A stretch of 64,000 nucleotides of DNA from Streptomyces sp. NBC_01267 (GTDB lineage: Bacteria > Actinomycetota > Actinomycetes > Streptomycetales > Streptomycetaceae), in NCBI RefSeq assembly GCF_036241575.1, contig NZ_CP108455.1, forward strand, positions 3,344,001 through 3,408,000, in the 5' to 3' direction. The translations under genes and the position numbers were made by a program. The notes below the pieces were generated by a model. It was not told the DNA's origin. It saw nothing but the letters and a program-made list of their open reading frames with translations, and did no database searches. This document shows, in pieces, positions 40,325 through 48,007 of the stretch; within the stretch, counting starts at the first letter, position 1; the number at the start of each line of letters is the position of its first letter.

Positions 40325-40816
40325 TCAGCCTCGCCGTGCGGCACCCGTGGGCCAGACCACATCGACGGCGAGTCCGGCCTTGCGCGCTTCGAGCACCGTG
40401 TCGGCGGTGCCTCCGCCCTTGCCCGACGGGGGCATTCCGTCCCACACGGCGACGAGCCGATCGGCGCGCTCCAGAAGGACGGAGTTCGCAGCCTCGTACG
40501 CCTTCCGGTCCGCAGTGTCGTAGGGCAGCACAACGACTTCGGCGGCAGCCTCGACCAGACGATCGAATACCTGGGCGTGCTCGCCGTGCACCTTGGTCGC
40601 CCGGTAGTTCCTCGACGGAATCACCGCCACGAGCCGACCGCCGACCTCGATCACCATCTCGGCGAACAAGCTGTCGGCTCCGGCAGCGATGCACGACACC
40701 CCGACCAGCCGGTCAGCCGCATGCGACTCCAGCACCTCACGAAGCGCGTTACGCACGAGCGGGACACTTTCGGCTGTGATGTCCATATGCCCAGTGACGG
40801 CAAGGGTGGTTGTCAC
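40325..40816 (-). CDS. SLOG/YpsA-like Rossmann-fold protein
   Basis: A 163-aa protein of the SLOG (LOG/YpsA/DprA-like) nucleotide-binding fold: TLAVTGHMDITAES at the first strand, GVSCIAAGADSLFAEMVIE as the glycine-rich loop, and ADRLVAVWDGMPPSGKGG with GTADTV near the C-terminus. Members bind nucleotides or their derivatives and are often tied to signalling or conflict systems. GTG 40816 has GGAGAG just upstream. It lies 14 bp downstream of the XRE gene and is probably in one transcript with it. Confidence 0.7.
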   Translation of the reverse strand: MTTTLAVTGHMDITAESVPLVRNALREVLESHAADRLVGVSCIAAGADSLFAEMVIEVGGRLVAVIPSRNYRATKVHGEHAQVFDRLVEAAAEVVVLPYDTADRKAYEAANSVLLERADRLVAVWDGMPPSGKGGGTADTVLEARKAGLAVDVVWPTGAARRG

Positions 40817-40829
40817 GTGCACTCTCCGA

Positions 40830-42278
40830 TCAGCTCGCCAGCAGATCGCGGATACTATCGCGCGCCCCTCGCACCGACGGCGACGAACTACGGCCCACGG
40901 TATAGGGATAGAGCGAGCCGAGTTTTCTACGCACCCGACCGGAACGGGTGAGCGAGGCTGCCTCGACAGCGCGGTACGTGTAGTCAGCCGCATCTGACAC
41001 ATCCCCTGCGAGAAACGAGCACTCAGCAAGCCCGATCCAGTCGAGCGCGTGTGACCGGCTGGCCTCGACACCACGTGCAGCGAGCGCCTGCCTGATCTCT
41101 GCGGCAGCTGTCTCCGCATGTGCCCGGGGGTCCGTGCGTGCCATGTCGAGCAGCCTTCCGCCCGTCACACCCGCGAGCTCTGCACGATCGAAGTAGTGGA
41201 TCCAGTAGGGCTCTTCACCGTCGTCAGCGTCAGCGAGTGCATCGACAGCCTGTCCCGTTGCCCGATGGAATGCTCCAGGGCGCCCCTGCGCCGCGTAGCA
41301 CCATGCCTCGCGGGTATGGAGCATGGCACGTACCCGCGGACCAAGCTCATGTCGTGCCCCGTCCTGCGCAAGTCGCACAAGATCGAGGGCATCCTGCGGC
41401 CGATCGCGATACAACATCTGCCGTGCCATGCCGGCAAGCACATTCGCCCCGAATACGGTGTCGCCGCCAGCGTGCGCAGACCGCAAGGCAAGCACGTAGT
41501 ACTGCTGTGCCTGCCGCTGCTGCCCCAAGTCCCAAGCCATCGTCGCGGCAGTTCCCGAAAGCTGCGCCATCACCCGATAGAGGCGGCGTTCGACATCCGG
41601 CCGCTGCTGCTCTTCGAGATTCGACGCAACTTCATTCAGCTGTCCAACCACTGCTTTGCTTCGCAATCCTCCGCCGTACTGGTGGTCCCATGACCGGAAA
41701 TGACGCGTGGTGCGTTCCAGTTGCTCTATGTCATTCTCGCCAAGTCGACCTCGGCGCAATCGTGGTACGACAGCTGCAGCTGGCTGCATCCAGCCTTCGA
41801 GCGAGTTGAGCAGCCCGGATCCGGTCACGGCTGCCCCTGCAAGTGCGCGAGTTGCCGCGCGCCGATCCATCACGAGATCACTCCTGGTCACGTCTGCCGC
41901 AAGCTCAACCGTGCGGTCGGGGTTCCACGGGGTCTCTCCTGTCGGCGTACGTCTCTCCGGCTCTACGGCCTGCTGTTGCTCGTCGGGTTTCGCCTCCCAC
42001 GGCCGACGAGCGAGACCGAGCATGGGGCCGGGGATACAAAGCCCGTCGGAGATACGACAAATCACCGTGAATGCAGTGACCTGTTGCTGCCCGCTAATGA
42101 TGTTCGAGACCTTGCCGGGCGTGAGCTGACACGCCGACGCGATCTTGTTCTGCGACAGTCCGCCCCACTTTTTGAACAGGGCGAACGCCGTGGCGAAGTC
42201 GTGCTCTGCGAGAGCTCGCCCGACTTCCTCACGTTCAAGGACTTCCAGAGCAAGCGGGCCAGGCGAGATGACGTCCAT
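40830..42278 (-). CDS. XRE-family regulator with TPR-like domain
   Basis: A 482-aa protein. The XRE helix-turn-helix is at about 38-85 (GGLSQNKIASACQLTPGKVS, then NIISGQQQVTAFTVICRISD). A linker and a Trp-containing segment follow, then 300 residues of helical TPR-like repeats (RQAQQYYVLALRSAHAGGD, DALDLVRLAQDGARH, AADYTYRAVEAASL). This layout is common in Streptomyces regulators of natural-product or peptide clusters; the TPR part usually binds a ligand or peptide. It is divergent from the DUF6415/radical SAM operon, which it likely controls. Confidence 0.8.
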   Translation of the reverse strand: MDVISPGPLALEVLEREEVGRALAEHDFATAFALFKKWGGLSQNKIASACQLTPGKVSNIISGQQQVTAFTVICRISDGLCIPGPMLGLARRPWEAKPDEQQQAVEPERRTPTGETPWNPDRTVELAADVTRSDLVMDRRAATRALAGAAVTGSGLLNSLEGWMQPAAAVVPRLRRGRLGENDIEQLERTTRHFRSWDHQYGGGLRSKAVVGQLNEVASNLEEQQRPDVERRLYRVMAQLSGTAATMAWDLGQQRQAQQYYVLALRSAHAGGDTVFGANVLAGMARQMLYRDRPQDALDLVRLAQDGARHELGPRVRAMLHTREAWCYAAQGRPGAFHRATGQAVDALADADDGEEPYWIHYFDRAELAGVTGGRLLDMARTDPRAHAETAAAEIRQALAARGVEASRSHALDWIGLAECSFLAGDVSDAADYTYRAVEAASLTRSGRVRRKLGSLYPYTVGRSSSPSVRGARDSIRDLLAS

Positions 42279-42434
42279 AGGTCGGCTCCGAGGCGATCTT
42301 ATGGGGGATGGATAGCGTATCGATAGAGAAACGAGTGCATTGCCGAGTCGGTAACACCCGCTGGTCATAGGCATATTGATCCCCCAGACCGAATCTGGAT
42401 ACCCGAAGGGAAGACGCCGACGACCGGAGGCACC

Positions 42435-42848
42435 GTGCAAACGACTACCGACACGCAACAAACCATCGAGGGGCCAGTCGCCACCGGCTCACAGTGGTCA
42501 GAGGCAGAGGATCCCAGGCCCGTGGATCTCGAAACGATGCGGGCCGTAGCGGATCGGCTTCTCGCCCTGGAAGAGGCGCCCTCGACGGATGATCTCCTCA
42601 CCCTGGTCATGATGCTGCGCGGATTCCTCGCCCTGCTCATCCCCGAGGTCCGCGCACTGGCCGCCGGACGTCCCGTGGACGACGTATGGCGGGCCGCCGC
42701 GCAGGCCGGAATCGGTGAGGCCCGTCGCCGCCTGAACCACACCACCGGGCATCGCGCACCCGTGCTGCTCGCGGAGGCCCAGCGCCTGTCCCGGTCGGTG
42801 CTGGCCCTGTGCACGTACCTGGAGAACCTGGAGGCGTGCGGTGAGTGA
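42435..42848 (+). CDS. DUF6415-family protein
   Basis: A 137-aa all-helical protein (LETMRAVADRLLALEE, LVMMLRGFLALLIPEVRAL, LLAEAQRLSRSVLALCTYLENL). It matches the DUF6415 group, named from its association with natural-product loci in actinobacteria; biochemical role unknown. The GTG start follows GGAGG at short spacing. It overlaps the next gene by 8 bp and opens the putative peptide-modification operon. Confidence 0.7.
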   Translation: MQTTTDTQQTIEGPVATGSQWSEAEDPRPVDLETMRAVADRLLALEEAPSTDDLLTLVMMLRGFLALLIPEVRALAAGRPVDDVWRAAAQAGIGEARRRLNHTTGHRAPVLLAEAQRLSRSVLALCTYLENLEACGE

Positions 42849-43404
42849 CTGCGTCGCACCGTGGAAGCCTCCACAGGGGACCGTGGGCGAGCTGGTGGCC
42901 GCCGGACGCTCCTGGGACGCCGTCCGCGCCCCGTGCAGCATCGGAGCCACCGTCGTCGACCAACTCGGCGAGAACTGCGGCGCGGTGATCCAGGACGGCT
43001 ACGCACAGAAGCTGTACTGGCTCATCAAGCCCCGCACGGCCGATACATGGCAGCACCAGGCAGGGTCGTCCGTGACGGTCCTGGGTACCGCCTCGTACGT
43101 GTTCGTACCTTCGGTGGAACGTACCGAGGGGCCGGGCCTGTGGTGGAAGGTCCCGCTTGAGCCGCTGCGCTACCTCACCGACGCGGACCTGCTGAAGGCC
43201 GTACTTGAGGAGGAGTTGGACGCGGTGCTCGGCCCGCGAACCCTGCTGGCATGCGAACCGTGCATGCACGCCCGGCTCTTCGAGACGAGCCATGACGGGT
43301 GCACAGGCGTCAGCAGTACGGAGTTGCAGGGCAGACGGATGCGCCCGAGTGCGCCCCGGCCCTGCCCCTGCGATCACCAGCTCATCCGGAGTAGCGATGC
43401 GTGA
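42841..43404 (+). CDS. unrecognised 187-aa protein in the radical SAM operon
   Basis: The family was not recognised with certainty. The first 130 residues (APWKPPQGTVGELVAAGRSW, CGAVIQDGYAQKLYWLIKP, TVLGTASYVFVPSVERTEGPGLWWKVP) resemble the small-domain pattern of actinobacterial proteins related to primase-polymerase N-terminal regions; this is weak. The last 50 residues are Cys- and Arg-rich (CEPCMHARLF, CTGVSS, CPCDHQ) and may bind zinc. It overlaps the gene before it and the 32-aa ORF after it, so it belongs to the operon. Confidence 0.6.
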   Translation: MSDCVAPWKPPQGTVGELVAAGRSWDAVRAPCSIGATVVDQLGENCGAVIQDGYAQKLYWLIKPRTADTWQHQAGSSVTVLGTASYVFVPSVERTEGPGLWWKVPLEPLRYLTDADLLKAVLEEELDAVLGPRTLLACEPCMHARLFETSHDGCTGVSSTELQGRRMRPSAPRPCPCDHQLIRSSDA

Positions 43405-43495
43405 GCCGAAGAACCGCCTCGCCGCCCTGACAGTGCTCTCCTGCCTCCTGGCTGTCCCGCTCCTCACGTGCCGCGTACACGACCTGGCCGTATAA
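43397..43495 (+). CDS. 32-aa hydrophobic peptide before the radical SAM gene
   Basis: The ATG overlaps the upstream stop (ATGCGTGA). The peptide has a charged start (MREPKNR), one hydrophobic helix (LAALTVLSCLLAVPLLT) and a polar end (CRVHDLAV), with two Cys. It is followed by a strong hairpin and then by the radical SAM gene. It could be a small membrane protein, a signal peptide remnant or, less likely, a modified peptide precursor. There is no separate ribosome-binding site, so expression depends on coupling. Confidence 0.45.
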   Translation: MREPKNRLAALTVLSCLLAVPLLTCRVHDLAV

Positions 43496-43552
43496 CCCAG
43501 CACCACACCCCATGGCGACCGAATCGGGTTCAAGGGTCGCACCCGACAACAC

Positions 43553-43591
43553 CCGCCCCGGCCGGAGTCCCGTAAGACCCGGCCGGGGCGG
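43553..43591 (+). terminator. 13-bp hairpin upstream of the radical SAM gene
   Basis: CCGCCCCGGCCGG pairs perfectly with CCGGCCGGGGCGG; loop 13 nt. In the middle of an operon this can act as an attenuator that keeps the enzymes at a lower level than the upstream small genes. An AAGGAGG sequence at 43629-43635 has no start codon at usable distance. Confidence 0.75.
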
Positions 43592-43686
43592 CTCTCCCAC
43601 CGCAACGCATCAGGAAGAGACACCGCCAAGGAGGAAAAGCGAAGAGCTTCTTCGCACCCCACCGGTCTCACATCGAAAGGCTCGGC

Positions 43687-44577
43687 ATGACCATCACCAT
43701 CGACAGTCCCGGATTGAACACTTCTCCCGCTGACGGAATTCTTTCCGTCGAGTGCGAGCTGACAGGCCGCTGCCAGTTGGAATGCTCGCACTGCTGCACC
43801 TTGTCCGGACCGAAGGCCGGCCACGGCACGATGACTCGCGCCGACTGGCTTGACGTCGTGGACGACATCGCCGCTGCCGGTATCCCCGCCGTCCAGTTCA
43901 TCGGCGGTGAGCCGACTCTCTCCCCGTCCTTGTTCTCCCTCGTCGACCGCGCGCTCGGGCATGGTCTGGTCGTCGAGGTCTACTCGAACCTCGCGCATGT
44001 CCGGCCCTCTCTGTGGACTGCCTTGGACCAGGCCGGTGTTCGTGTCGCGACCAGCTACTACAGCGACGACCCGGAGCAGCACGACACGATCACCGGAGGC
44101 AGGGGCAGCCATGCCCGCACCCTGGCCAACATCACCGAGGTACTGCGCCGGGGCATCCCGCTGCGTGTCGGCCTGGTCGACCTCGGTGACGGGCAGCGCG
44201 TCGCCGAAGCCGAAGCCCAACTACGGGCGCTCGGCGTGCAGAACATCCGAGTGGACCGGGTACGCGCAGTTGGACGCGCGGCATCGGATTCCGCCACCAT
44301 TCCCCACGTGAGTGAGCTGTGCGGGCGGTGCTTCCACGAGCGCGTCGCAGTGTCCCCGGACGGTGATGTGTACGGCTGCATCCTGTCCCGGCACCTGCCC
44401 ACAGGGAACGTACGCACGACACGTCTGCGTGAGGTCCTGGCCGGCCCCCGGTGGGCCGAAGCGCGGTCCGCCGTGCCCAAAGCGGCTACCCACGCGTGCC
44501 CGCCCAACGACGGCGGCGATTGCAGTCCCGCCAACACCCCTGCTTGCAACCCGAAGTTCCAGGAGAAGCACCGGTGA
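43687..44577 (+). CDS. radical SAM/SPASM-like enzyme
   Basis: A 296-aa enzyme. The radical SAM [4Fe-4S] motif is CQLECSHC (Cys29, Cys33, Cys36), followed by QFIGGEPTLSPSLFSLVDR (SAM-binding GGEPT) and a TIM-barrel core to about 200. The C-terminal part contains LCGRCFHERVAVSPDGDVYGC and further Cys (ACPPND, DCSPAN, ACNPKF), which fits a SPASM/auxiliary cluster domain. Such enzymes modify peptides (cyclophane, thioether, epimer). ATG follows AAAGG. The stop overlaps the methyltransferase start (GTGA), so both enzymes are coupled. Confidence 0.88.
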   Translation: MTITIDSPGLNTSPADGILSVECELTGRCQLECSHCCTLSGPKAGHGTMTRADWLDVVDDIAAAGIPAVQFIGGEPTLSPSLFSLVDRALGHGLVVEVYSNLAHVRPSLWTALDQAGVRVATSYYSDDPEQHDTITGGRGSHARTLANITEVLRRGIPLRVGLVDLGDGQRVAEAEAQLRALGVQNIRVDRVRAVGRAASDSATIPHVSELCGRCFHERVAVSPDGDVYGCILSRHLPTGNVRTTRLREVLAGPRWAEARSAVPKAATHACPPNDGGDCSPANTPACNPKFQEKHR

Positions 44578-45698
44578 ACTGGAAACCCCTTGCCGCAGTC
44601 CTGGCGGACAGCGTCACCCACGCCGGGTCACGCTGGCGGACACCTGTCGCGGCGCTCCCACGGCATCTTTTCGTTCCGAACTGGTGGGCGGGAGAGGATG
44701 GTTGGTCGTTACGCGCAGGGGCTGACACCGAGGAGGGGTGGCGGGCCGCCGCGTACACGGACACGTCACTCGTCACCCGCGTCGGAACCGCTCACGCGGA
44801 CCACGCGCAGCCCGGCGACCGGCCCGTGGGCCGACCGACTTCCTCAGCAACGCTCCCGTCGCTACTGGTGCGCATGTTCCAGCACGCCCGGTTCGGCGAC
44901 GACGACACTCTCCTGGATGTCGGCACCGGCTCGGGATACGGCACTGCCCTCGCCTGTATGCGCCTGGGAGAACGCCGGGTCAGCAGCATCGACGTGGACG
45001 CCTACCTCACCGAGGCAGCTGGGCAGCGTCTCGCCGAGGTTGGACTGCACCCCCGGCTGCACGCCCTGGACGCGAGCAGCGAACTGCCGGACGCCTACGA
45101 CCGGATCGTGGCCACCGTGGGCGTCCGGCCCGTACCCACGAGCTGGCTGACAGCGCTCAAGCCGGGCGGACGACTGGTGACGACCATCGCCGGTACGACG
45201 CTCATCGTCACTGCGGAGAAACAGGCCGATGGCACCGCCAGGGGGCGGGTCGAATGGGACCGGGCGGGTTTCATGGACGCCCGGCACAGTGCCGACTACC
45301 ACGCCCTGCCGGTTGGCCTCGGCGACGCAGCCCGCACGCAGGAAGGAGAGTTCGTCACCGCGGGCCGGTATCCGGTGGTGGATGTGGAACAGGCGTGGGA
45401 CCTGTCGTCGATGCTGGGGATCGAGGTGCCCGGTGTCGTCCACGGATACGAGGAAGACGGGGAGCGGTGTACGGCCTGGCTCGCTCACCCGGACGGTTCG
45501 TGGGCTCGTGCCACCAGCCGTGACGGCGGTACCCCGGTCATTCACCAGAGCGGTTCCCGCCACCTCTGGGACGTCCTCGACAAGATCCGCTCCTACTGGC
45601 TTCAGCACGGCGAGCTTCCTGCACGCGGTGCCCACGTCCTGATCACCCCCGACGGGCGGACACGGCTCGCCCGAGGGGCCTGGCGCGCCACCCTCTGA
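44574..45698 (+). CDS. PIMT-like methyltransferase with C-terminal extension
   Basis: A 374-aa protein. The first 230 residues follow protein-L-isoaspartate O-methyltransferase: PRHLFVPNWW, the SATLPSLLVRMFQ segment at the substrate pocket, SAM motif I LLDVGTGSGYGTAL (113-126), and LKPGGRLVTTIAG. About 140 extra residues (WDLSSMLGIEVPGVVHGYEE to TPDGRTRLARGAWRATL) are typical of the PIMT relatives found in RiPP gene clusters, which methylate Asp in a modified peptide and yield aspartimide. GTG start overlaps the radical SAM stop. Confidence 0.8.
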   Translation: MNWKPLAAVLADSVTHAGSRWRTPVAALPRHLFVPNWWAGEDGWSLRAGADTEEGWRAAAYTDTSLVTRVGTAHADHAQPGDRPVGRPTSSATLPSLLVRMFQHARFGDDDTLLDVGTGSGYGTALACMRLGERRVSSIDVDAYLTEAAGQRLAEVGLHPRLHALDASSELPDAYDRIVATVGVRPVPTSWLTALKPGGRLVTTIAGTTLIVTAEKQADGTARGRVEWDRAGFMDARHSADYHALPVGLGDAARTQEGEFVTAGRYPVVDVEQAWDLSSMLGIEVPGVVHGYEEDGERCTAWLAHPDGSWARATSRDGGTPVIHQSGSRHLWDVLDKIRSYWLQHGELPARGAHVLITPDGRTRLARGAWRATL

Positions 45699-45766: not shown

Positions 45767-46420
45767 TCACCCGTCGATCAACCGCTGGAGCGAAGGCCCG
45801 CAGAGCTCGGCCAGCCGTTCGGGCGTGGCCAGTTCACCGGCGCCGGGCCGGTGCAGGCTGAGCGCCGCACCGATGCCCAGCAGTTGGCCGGCGATCAGTT
45901 CCGCGCGCAGTTCGTGGTCCTCGCCGGTGAGGCGGGCGGCCAGCCGGGAGGTGACCTGCTCGCGGAAGCGCTCCTTGAGCAGGGAGCGCTCGTCACGGTT
46001 GCCGAGGGAGAACACGACGCGCAGCAGCGGGTCGGCCTGCTGGGCGCGCCGGCTCCGTACGAGAGTGAGCACCAGGTGGCGGCCCAGTTCGTCCAGGGGC
46101 GCGTCGAAGAGTGTGTCGGCCGCCGCCCCGAAGTCGGCGACCTTGTTGAACAGTTGCTCCTTCGTCCCGAACCGCTTGACGATCAGCGAGGCACTGACCC
46201 CGGCGTCGGCGGCGATCCCGCGCATGGTCACCTCGGCGTACGGGCGCTGGGTGAACGCCCGCCGGGCGGCGAACAGGATGGCGTCCCGGCCGCTCGGGCC
46301 CGTACCCGTACCTGTACCTGTACCTGTACCTGTACCCGCAGCGGTCGCCGTATCCGTACCGGCCCCAGCATCCGTACCCGTGTCCGCGCCCGTATCCGTA
46401 TCCGTACCGCCGACGGTCAT
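45767..46420 (-). CDS. TetR regulator with Thr-Gly repeat N-terminus
   Basis: A 217-aa TetR protein: HTH at about 62-90 (VTMRGIAADAGVSASLIVKRF, adjoining GTKEQLF) and a C-terminal domain of the TetR_C_17-like type (ADTLFDAPLDELGRHLVLTL, LLRVVFSL). The first 42 residues are an unusual low-complexity Thr/Gly/Asp/Ala string (TGTGTGTGTGTGTG), encoded by GGTACA-type hexamer repeats at about 46300-46340; length may vary by slippage. Its ATG overlaps the MFS stop (ATGA), so it is co-expressed with the exporter and probably represses it. Confidence 0.85.
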   Translation of the reverse strand: MTVGGTDTDTGADTGTDAGAGTDTATAAGTGTGTGTGTGTGPSGRDAILFAARRAFTQRPYAEVTMRGIAADAGVSASLIVKRFGTKEQLFNKVADFGAAADTLFDAPLDELGRHLVLTLVRSRRAQQADPLLRVVFSLGNRDERSLLKERFREQVTSRLAARLTGEDHELRAELIAGQLLGIGAALSLHRPGAGELATPERLAELCGPSLQRLIDG

Positions 46421-47913
46421 GCGTCCTCCCGAACAAGCACCTTCGTACCCCGCTCCCCGACGCTACCGGCCGCGGCGGACGTCTTGCCCGGAATGCACAG
46501 TGTGACGGCCAGCGCGGCGAGTGCGACGGCCCCCGCGATCAGGAAGACCAGCAGGTACGCGTGCAGGGTGGGCGCGGTGCGGCCTCCGACCTGTAAGGTG
46601 ACGTTGGCCAGGACGGCGGCGACCACGGCGGAGCAGAAGGCCTGTCCGACCGAGCGCATCAGGGTGTTGAGCCCGTTGGCCGCCCCGGTCTCGCTGACCG
46701 GGACCGCGCGCATCACCAGCGAGGGCAGCGCGGAGTACGCGAGGGCGGTGCCGGAGGCCACCACGGTGGCGCCCACGATGATCAGCCACAGGCTGTGGCT
46801 GGTGAAGAAGCGCACCAGATACCCCACGGCCAGGACGCCCGAGGCGAGCGCGAGGGTGAACTTCGGGCCGTACCTGGCGGAGAGCCGCGCGGAGACCGGC
46901 GACAGCGCCACCATGGAGAGCCCGCCGGGCAGCAGGCACAGCCCGCCGACCACGATCGAGGCGCCGAGGCCGTACCCGGTGTCCTTGGGTTCCTGCACCA
47001 TCTGGGCGGTGGACAGGGAGTTGGCGTAGAAGGCGAAGCCGATGAACAGCGCGGCCAGGTTGGCGAACAGCACCGCGGGCCGCGCCGAGACCCGCAGGTC
47101 GACCATGGGCGAGGAGACGCCCAGCTCGTAACGGCCCCAGACGAGCCCGATCACGACGGCGGCGACGAACAGCCCGATGACCCGGGCGGAACCCCAGCCC
47201 CACTCGCCGCCCTGGGTGGTGGCCAGCAGCAGACAGACCAGCGCCCCGCTCAGCCCGAGCGCTCCCAGCGCGTCGAACCGGCCACGCGTGCGCAGCGGGG
47301 ACTCCGGCACGAAGATCAGTACCAGCACGATGTCCAGCACGCCCAGCCCGGCCGAGGCCCAGAACATGGTGTGCCAGTTGTAGTGCTCGATGACGAACGC
47401 GGCGATGGGCAGCCCGACGGCCGCACCGATCCCCAGCGTCGAACTCATCAGCGCGACGGACGACAGCACCCGGGCGGGCGGCAGCTCGTCCCGCATGATG
47501 CTGATGCCCAGCGGTACGACGGCGAGCGCGGCCCCCTGGAGCGCGCGCCCGGCGATGAGCACCCCGATCTGGGAGCTGACCGCGCAGAGCACGGACCCGA
47601 CGACGAGCACCCCGAGCGCGGCGACGAGCACCCGCCGCTTCCCGTACATGTCCCCGACCCGCCCGAGCACCGGCGTACAGACGGCGCCGGTGAGCAGCGT
47701 GACGGTGACCAGCCAGCTGGCGGCGGCGGGGGTGGACCCGGTGAGCGCGGGCACGTGCGGCAGCAGCGGCACGACGAGCGTCTGCATGACGGCGACGACC
47801 ACACCGCAGAAGGCGAGAACGCCGACGAACATGCGGGGGTGGGCGGCTCTGCCGGGTTCGTCGGATCCCGCGAGCGCTGTCGGCTCTGCGGGTCCGGGTA
47901 TCGCTGGGGACAT
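46417..47913 (-). CDS. MFS drug exporter, DHA2-like (14 TM)
   Basis: A 498-aa transporter with about 14 helices. Typical motifs are GRVGDMYGKRRVLV (motif A), LIAGRALQGAALAVVPLGIS (motif B-like) and STLGIGAAVGLPIAAFVI (motif C, marker of antiporter exporters). It probably expels a drug or antibiotic using the proton gradient. The ATG at 47913 is placed after the 48-bp inverted repeat (47960-48007), which is likely its operator. The gene is coupled to the TetR gene downstream. Confidence 0.88.
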   Translation of the reverse strand: MSPAIPGPAEPTALAGSDEPGRAAHPRMFVGVLAFCGVVVAVMQTLVVPLLPHVPALTGSTPAAASWLVTVTLLTGAVCTPVLGRVGDMYGKRRVLVAALGVLVVGSVLCAVSSQIGVLIAGRALQGAALAVVPLGISIMRDELPPARVLSSVALMSSTLGIGAAVGLPIAAFVIEHYNWHTMFWASAGLGVLDIVLVLIFVPESPLRTRGRFDALGALGLSGALVCLLLATTQGGEWGWGSARVIGLFVAAVVIGLVWGRYELGVSSPMVDLRVSARPAVLFANLAALFIGFAFYANSLSTAQMVQEPKDTGYGLGASIVVGGLCLLPGGLSMVALSPVSARLSARYGPKFTLALASGVLAVGYLVRFFTSHSLWLIIVGATVVASGTALAYSALPSLVMRAVPVSETGAANGLNTLMRSVGQAFCSAVVAAVLANVTLQVGGRTAPTLHAYLLVFLIAGAVALAALAVTLCIPGKTSAAAGSVGERGTKVLVREDA

Positions 47914-47959
47914 GGCTCTCCGTCGGGCTTGCGGCTGGCGTGGGAGCTGCGCACCGCGA

Positions 47960-48007
47960 CTGGGGTGCACAGACGTTCACCCCAGGGTAAACGCTTGTGC
48001 ACCCCAG
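47960..48007. promoter_or_regulatory. 48-bp inverted repeat, likely TetR operator
   Basis: Two contiguous 24-bp arms (47960-47983 and 47984-48007) are reverse complements at 20 of 24 positions; the outer 12 bases (CTGGGGTGCACA) match perfectly. The centre CGTTCACCC/GGGTAAACG forms a second palindrome at 8 of 9. The site is 46 bp upstream of the MFS start, so it could hold two TetR dimers. Confidence 0.75.

Follow-up and report, generated by a model that had tools for sequence, protein, structure and literature searches.

The radical S-adenosylmethionine (SAM) enzyme considered here, encoded by Streptomyces sp. NBC_01267, ends in a conserved tail that is the best candidate we have found for its own substrate. 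The gene lies within positions 40325..45698 of the window, by which is meant the whole analysed stretch of 64,000 nucleotides, and the gene that follows it encodes a PIMT-like methyltransferase (PAMT). An earlier note on this DNA had recognized both enzymes but sought their substrate among the neighbouring proteins and did not mention the tail. We propose that the locus is a self-substrate system resembling those that produce ribosomally synthesized and post-translationally modified peptides (RiPPs), in which the tail would be cross-linked by the enzyme that carries it and an aspartate within it would then be modified by the PAMT. We put the chances that this reading is correct at just short of even.

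The enzyme pair and the tail of its first member

The surroundings of relatives of the radical SAM enzyme were compared in 48 loci, comprising eight of nine named records (L012, a fragment, was excluded, and L005, of the same species, was counted) and 40 stretches from 392 sampled Streptomyces genomes. Of the 48, 38 have a PIMT gene downstream in the same orientation, directly adjacent in 37; a 1.4-kb interruption precedes it in L061, and L011, in which the PIMT gene is upstream on the other strand, is not among the 38. Upstream of the enzyme, the other loci encode XRE-like regulators, DUF397-like proteins, HATPase proteins and various small proteins (named by eye), and the conserved unit is therefore the radical SAM-PIMT pair, which occurs together beyond chance. 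The search for gene order that the earlier note had called for thus upholds the pair, but not its association with the DUF6415 protein, the 187-aa protein and the 32-aa peptide encoded upstream, which do not travel along. The architecture is not new: Lee et al. 2023 (PMC10787088) already list 249 radical SAM-PAMT two-gene clusters, given there without a precursor. It is therefore published, with no substrate named in the literature searched; what is added here is the conservation of the tail and the way in which it matches the partner gene.

Both enzymes have the RiPP-like character that had been ascribed to them. The methyltransferase aligns over residues 6-362 with positions 1-361 of the 363 of TIGR04188 (249.3 bits, below the curated cut-off of 380 bits), which a survey of graspetides (PMC8939145) lists as a PIMT specific to RiPPs. 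Because this match spans the whole length, the supposed C-terminal extension of the protein is simply the C-terminal part of the model. No NCBIfam model identifies the radical SAM protein, StsB coming first of 47 with 69.7 bits (cut-off 625), but its fold is most similar to that of SkfB, with SuiB, CteB and EpeE in the top 15 matches together with the non-peptide enzymes DesII and BlsE. SkfB and CteB bind the leader peptide through an N-terminal RiPP recognition element (RRE) (PMC8326336). In a Pfam scan, the present enzyme matched nothing beyond Radical_SAM, SPASM and, below threshold, Fer4_12, and the first strand of its model starts at residue 20; that an RRE is not seen is as expected if the substrate is attached to the enzyme.

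Within the sensitivity of the comparison, no small precursor open reading frame (ORF) common to most of the 48 loci was found, and the earlier observation that none is recognizable beside the pair is supported. In an all-against-all comparison of flank ORF pieces of at least 15 aa (BLAST, E up to 1e-3), the 45 largest groups, those with at least three loci, were inspected and named by eye. They consist of regulators, HATPase, DUF397-like and other accessory families and other-frame pieces of adjacent genes, and the broadest small same-strand family reaches 13/48 loci.

A linker of low conservation follows the twitch cysteines of the enzyme and leads to its C-terminal motif, C-x-P-x-D-x-x-D-C-x-P-x-x-T-x-A-C-x-P-x-[YF]. 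In an alignment of 71 of 73 rows, conservation in the tail (residues 271-291) is 3.57 bits, compared with 3.20 in the core, 3.27 in the twitch region, 2.44 in the linker and 1.31 after the tail; C271, P273, D275, C279, P281, C287 and P289 are each present in 71/71 rows and D278 in 69/71. Synonymous differences are frequent in the codons of the tail (1055 of 2484 comparisons, in rows picked by a pattern that fixes nine residues, so that the zero non-synonymous changes there arise by construction), and the PIMT gene starts at a varying distance after it. Thus, it is the protein that is conserved in this region and not a ribosome-binding site. The tail is predicted to be disordered: AlphaFold2 assigns residues 272-296 a predicted local distance difference test score (pLDDT) of <50, most ten-residue blocks of residues 21-260 scoring >90 and the lowest 77, and residues 269-299 of a relative with another tail type are likewise at pLDDT <50.

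Among the best 120 of 2270 database relatives (E up to 1e-20), 365/377 tail cysteines stand in Cys-x-Pro, compared with 0/930 of those before the tail. A fixed pattern for the Asp-type unit finds one copy in 109 of these proteins, two in 5 and none in 6, some of which have broken or variant tails. The D..DC unit follows the last twitch cysteine at a distance of 43 to 77 residues. The second cysteine set of a canonical SPASM domain is spaced CX2CX5CX3C. That spacing is absent from the present enzyme, the tail of which reads C-x7-C-x7-C with each cysteine in Cys-x-Pro.

Copies of the tail detached from an intact enzyme look like decaying enzyme genes, as judged from their sequences. Short proteins carrying the tail number 3 in 5.8 billion, all of which read as C-terminal pieces of the enzyme, and a tail profile search of the 392 genomes, with at most 20 candidates scored in each, gave 48 matches in 40 genomes. 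Seven odd matches were inspected (L148-L154). The enzyme core has been lost from L148, L150 and L151, which keep a segment of the tail (its unit intact in L148, altered in L150, and partial and in frame with a regulator in L151) together with a PIMT that aligns over its whole length. L149 retains an enzyme fragment, with no PIMT seen, and L152-L154 are cut or split between frames. Core and tail are ~1.4 kb apart in L061. The joint survival of tail and PIMT is suggestive at most.

Tail type and downstream partner

Enlarging the set by 40 stretches brought it to 80 of 94 places, the remainder being the 12 weakest, the window's own and that of the sister strain. From 83 loci, L080 and L135 were dropped because the frame that was read shows no twitch motif, and L008, L009, L013 and the window were added, which gave 85 rows for comparison, 50 of them PIMT-linked. 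The string D..DC.P occurs in 39/50 PIMT-linked tails and in 0/35 of the others, and the shorter D[STG] in 47/50, the misses being an interrupted tail in L061, one with a frame change in L079 and a shortened one in L107. An APH-like kinase (25.3 bits to Pfam APH in one example, cut-off 23.2) follows the enzyme in 15/15 cases in which the tail closes with C-x-P-[RF]-x. A Ser or Thr two residues before the last cysteine is found in 13/15 of these kinase-linked tails, compared with 0/14 of a CTPPQFLP class, 3/50 of the PIMT-linked and 0/6 of the others. One family of ~115-aa proteins is encoded downstream of the CTPPQFLP class in 13/14 cases, two more classes (3 and 2 rows) each have a partner of their own, and L013 is without one.

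A class-wide sample of 394 genomes gave 38 matches and 30 loci, the tails of which were read by eye. A PIMT is seen in 18 of the loci, the kinase in 4 and neither in 8. Thirteen of the 18 PIMT loci are from outside Streptomyces, where D[STG] is present in 11/11 readable tails and the exact D..DC.P in 5/11, a count that omits L178 (partial PIMT match) and L183 (unreadable tail); the kinase-linked enzymes end S-x-C-x-P-R in 4/4 cases.

Plasmids carry relatives of the enzyme as well, in 28 records of which 22 are from Streptomyces and the rest include Embleya, Amycolatopsis, Paraburkholderia and Rhizobium. A radical SAM gene of 49% identity, annotated as an oxidoreductase, lies in a prophage, near the integrase of Mycobacterium phage prophi68-1 (L185), with no PIMT annotated alongside; the encoded enzyme ends before any Cys-x-Pro tail, and in-frame Cys-x-Pro codons appear past its stop (by eye).

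A proposed mechanism and its competitors

In essence, the core would be the C-terminal disordered segment, with its three Cys-x-Pro units and D-x-x-D-C motif. The radical SAM enzyme would act on its own tail, probably forming thioether bonds from cysteines to nearby residues, and the three-cysteine auxiliary cluster would assist in this cross-linking; the auxiliary cluster of SkfB has three Cys ligands and an open site for the substrate (PMC8326336). Freyrasin contains Cys-Asp thioethers (PMC8326336), and the C271-x3-D275 arrangement would permit a similar link. The PAMT would then methylate D275 or D278 in the constrained tail, leading to an aspartimide or isoaspartate. RiPP PAMTs often require a cyclic or hairpin-like substrate, and they use sites in which the Asp stands before Gly or Cys, such as TxDGC in lanthipeptides and GDC in type II pamtides (PMC10787088). 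We therefore propose cross-linking of the tail followed by Asp modification. A tail cysteine, especially the first, may itself ligate the cluster, and the roles of ligand and substrate could coexist.

A wider version of this proposal, which we hold more tentatively, is that of an actinobacterial radical SAM family with a tail of Cys-x-Pro repeats as substrate, each branch of which would have recruited one tailoring enzyme for the residue that its tail displays. The partner would be a PAMT for Asp and an APH-like kinase for Ser/Thr, and an AAA ATPase or small unknown proteins would serve the other tails.

Several observations weigh against the built-in substrate. In the tree of 85, a single branch of weak support (61) divides the PAMT-linked enzymes from the others. 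PIMT linkage thus needs one change on that tree, so that the match of tail to partner is not independent evidence; on the sequences compared, it is a match between clades and not a set of repeated events. Furthermore, D[STG] is not exclusive, being present in 15/35 PAMT-less tails, 11/50 PAMT-linked tails are without the exact D..DC.P string, and a short, diverged precursor ORF could be missed by a neighbourhood comparison. In the 48/48 PAMT-linked rows that have one, the first tail cysteine lies 39-42 residues past the last twitch cysteine, a near-fixed distance of the sort expected of a cluster ligand, and the Pfam SPASM match ends exactly at C271. These last two features favour the main rival explanation, in which the tail cysteines are auxiliary Fe-S cluster ligands, forming an unusual SPASM C-terminus, and both enzymes act on an unlinked peptide or protein. 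A radical SAM enzyme beside a kinase-like gene in the same genome, with a Cys-rich end of other spacing that resembles SPASM ligands, points the same way. We nevertheless consider the explanation unlikely: intact PAMT-linked tails have between 3 and 6 cysteines and PAMT-less ones between 2 and 8, the first cysteine of the latter being 41 to 56 residues out, almost all tail cysteines are in Cys-x-Pro, the non-cysteine residues D275 and T284 are about equally conserved, and the region is predicted to be disordered.

The substrate might instead be encoded elsewhere in the genome, the tail having no catalytic role, as would suit pairs that are listed without a nearby precursor by Lee et al. and have none recognized in our 48 loci. 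Such an arrangement would leave unexplained why the tail is conserved above the active-site domain and why it matches the partner, and we think it improbable. The partner specificity of the tail types, and their predicted disorder, would also be compatible with a docking motif that brings the PAMT, kinase or other partner to an external substrate on which both enzymes act. Duplicated units, Cys-x-Pro repeats and a conserved Asp or Ser/Thr would, however, better suit a substrate, and no external one is known; we rate docking as distinctly improbable. The earlier note had looked to the 187-aa or DUF6415 protein, and the 32-aa peptide has also to be considered, since all three are encoded in the same operon. 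As conserved substrates they are rejected by the comparison, which finds them in only 3/48, 6/48 and 1/48 loci, respectively (the last by tblastn, in the sister strain, with two divergent relatives in L006 and L007), and finds the same block at the head of a graspetide cluster. This largely refutes the idea, and we give it very little credence.

If the built-in substrate is real, these would be, to our knowledge, the first self-substrate radical SAM peptide systems. It would also answer the question of what the 249 substrate-less radical SAM-PAMT clusters modify, and would mean that searches for a separate precursor in such clusters look in the wrong place. The enzyme-fused-core logic of the borosins would be extended to radical SAM chemistry, and the match of tail to partner would predict a role for the kinase-linked and other branches.

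The locus, its front end and known systems

ORF and profile scans reproduced the gene content and positions called in the earlier note (Table 1). The GTG start of the methyltransferase gene overlaps the TGA stop of the radical SAM gene.

Table 1. Features of the locus in window coordinates
Feature	Position	Strand	Evidence or remark
SLOG-like protein	40325-40816	-	PF02481 (DprA) 13.4 bits, below cut-off
HTH/TPR regulator, NsdA family	40830-42278	-	NF053720 282.5 bits, cut-off 75
DUF6415 protein	42435-42848	+	PF19979 71.7 bits, cut-off 27.5
187-aa protein, family not known	42841-43404	+	no match in Pfam and NCBIfam scans
32-aa hydrophobic ORF	43397-43495	+	
G+C-rich hairpin	43553-43591	+	fold z-score -2.7 for 43496-43610; no match in Rfam search
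Radical SAM/SPASM-twitch enzyme, 296 aa	43687-44577	+	Radical_SAM and SPASM both above Pfam cut-offs
Twitch cysteines of the enzyme, C212-x2-C215-x15-C231	44320-44379	+	invariant in 73 sequences
C-terminal Cys-x-Pro/Asp tail of the enzyme, residues 271-291	44497-44559	+	candidate built-in substrate
PIMT-like (PAMT) methyltransferase, 374 aa	44574-45698	+	TIGR04188-like over whole length

A near-identical locus is found in Streptomyces sp. A 4/2 (L005), a strain of the same species, where a frame change in the assembly splits the radical SAM gene at residue 38. The SLOG gene occurs in 2/48 loci (L044 and L005), and the HTH_31 match of the regulator, at 24.5 bits, is slightly under the Pfam cut-off of 27. 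In a scan for defence functions, PADLOC likens part of the enzyme to viperin models (best 40.6 bits) and part of the methyltransferase to mad2 (44.9 bits), with weaker matches for the two minus-strand proteins; these are matches to generic domains. No protease or transporter gene was seen on the strand of the operon. Directly past the methyltransferase, at 45767-47970 on the minus strand, are a TetR-like regulator ORF and an MFS-like transporter ORF (by eye), the former with a long Thr/Gly/Asp low-complexity N-terminus; a similar Thr-Gly run is present in one ORF of L093, another locus of this genome.

The front of the operon is shared with a graspetide cluster of the same genome. Window positions 42704-43620 (+) are 89.6% identical to positions 3337-4254 of L094 (G000:C1:3310000-3321000), ~27 kb left of the window start and about 70 kb from the locus, where the copy stands directly upstream of the cluster. 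The order in L094 is TPR regulator, DUF6415-like protein, paralogues of the 187-aa and 32-aa proteins and hairpin, after which come a putative precursor ORF, an ATP-grasp that scores 384 bits with TIGR04187 (cut-off 350) and a methyltransferase that resembles TIGR04188 at 354.7 bits, short of its cut-off of 380. The hairpin stretch recurs there, and a matching piece lies just before the radical SAM gene of L007. In three of the 48 loci (L006, L007 and L073), genes for an unknown protein of 402 aa that matches nothing in Pfam, an LDH-like dehydrogenase above the Pfam cut-off and a weak HprK-like protein, none of which is in the window, separate the 32-aa-like ORF or other front genes from that of the radical SAM enzyme. 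RiPP-like cassettes thus appear to have exchanged their regulatory and accessory front ends.

Five more TIGR04188-like methyltransferases of the genome (L093, L095-L098) match most of the model. That of L095 is accompanied by an ATP-grasp; that of L093 scores above the cut-off (500 bits), with no visible ATP-grasp gene; that of L097 is beside VWA/FHA-like genes (by eye), an arrangement also found in Lee et al.; and the other two are in different surroundings. The methyltransferase of the locus is 27-31% identical to five of the six same-genome relatives compared and 22% identical to the sixth.

Literature searches for radical SAM enzymes with fused cores returned nothing on the subject, as judged by title and the start of the abstract, one for DUF6415 gave only an unrelated paper, and the terms "radical" and "rSAM" are absent from the main text of a 2026 review of aspartimide RiPPs (PMC13001092). 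Of the systems already described, the clusters of Lee et al. share with the locus adjacent genes for a radical SAM enzyme and a C-terminally extended PIMT-type protein and the want of a recognized precursor. The locus belongs with them, given its match to 361/363 positions of TIGR04188, its adjacent, overlapping genes and the lack of a recognized precursor in the neighbourhood.

Graspetide clusters with a PIMT (TIGR04187 and TIGR04188) have in common with it the full-length methyltransferase model and, in this genome, the upstream block. The locus differs in having a radical SAM enzyme in place of the ATP-grasp and a methyltransferase under the TIGR04188 cut-off. No TIGR04187 ligase was found in its operon, the two matches in the genome being at 3.315 and 3.627 Mb and the locus itself at 3.384-3.390 Mb, and it is thus not classed as a graspetide cluster. 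The sactipeptide and ranthipeptide maturases SkfB and CteB resemble the enzyme in fold, its three twitch cysteines recall the three that hold the auxiliary cluster of SkfB, and the candidate core is rich in Cys and Asp, but SkfB and CteB work with an RRE and separate precursor peptides, neither of which was found at the locus. Pamtides (PMC10787088) combine a PAMT with a candidate Asp near cysteines, the type II motif being CxxCxGxGDCxxCxGxG, but their two-gene clusters pair a precursor with the PAMT and have no other primary enzyme, whereas the locus has a radical SAM enzyme and no recognized separate precursor ORF. It is with the borosins (OphMA; PMC7878506) that the proposed logic would be shared, the core being the C-terminal part of the enzyme that modifies it, and the candidate core described here is C-terminal, predicted to be flexible, conserved and present as repeats in some relatives. 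The borosin enzymes are N-methyltransferases, whereas here a radical SAM enzyme would modify itself and a separate PAMT would follow.

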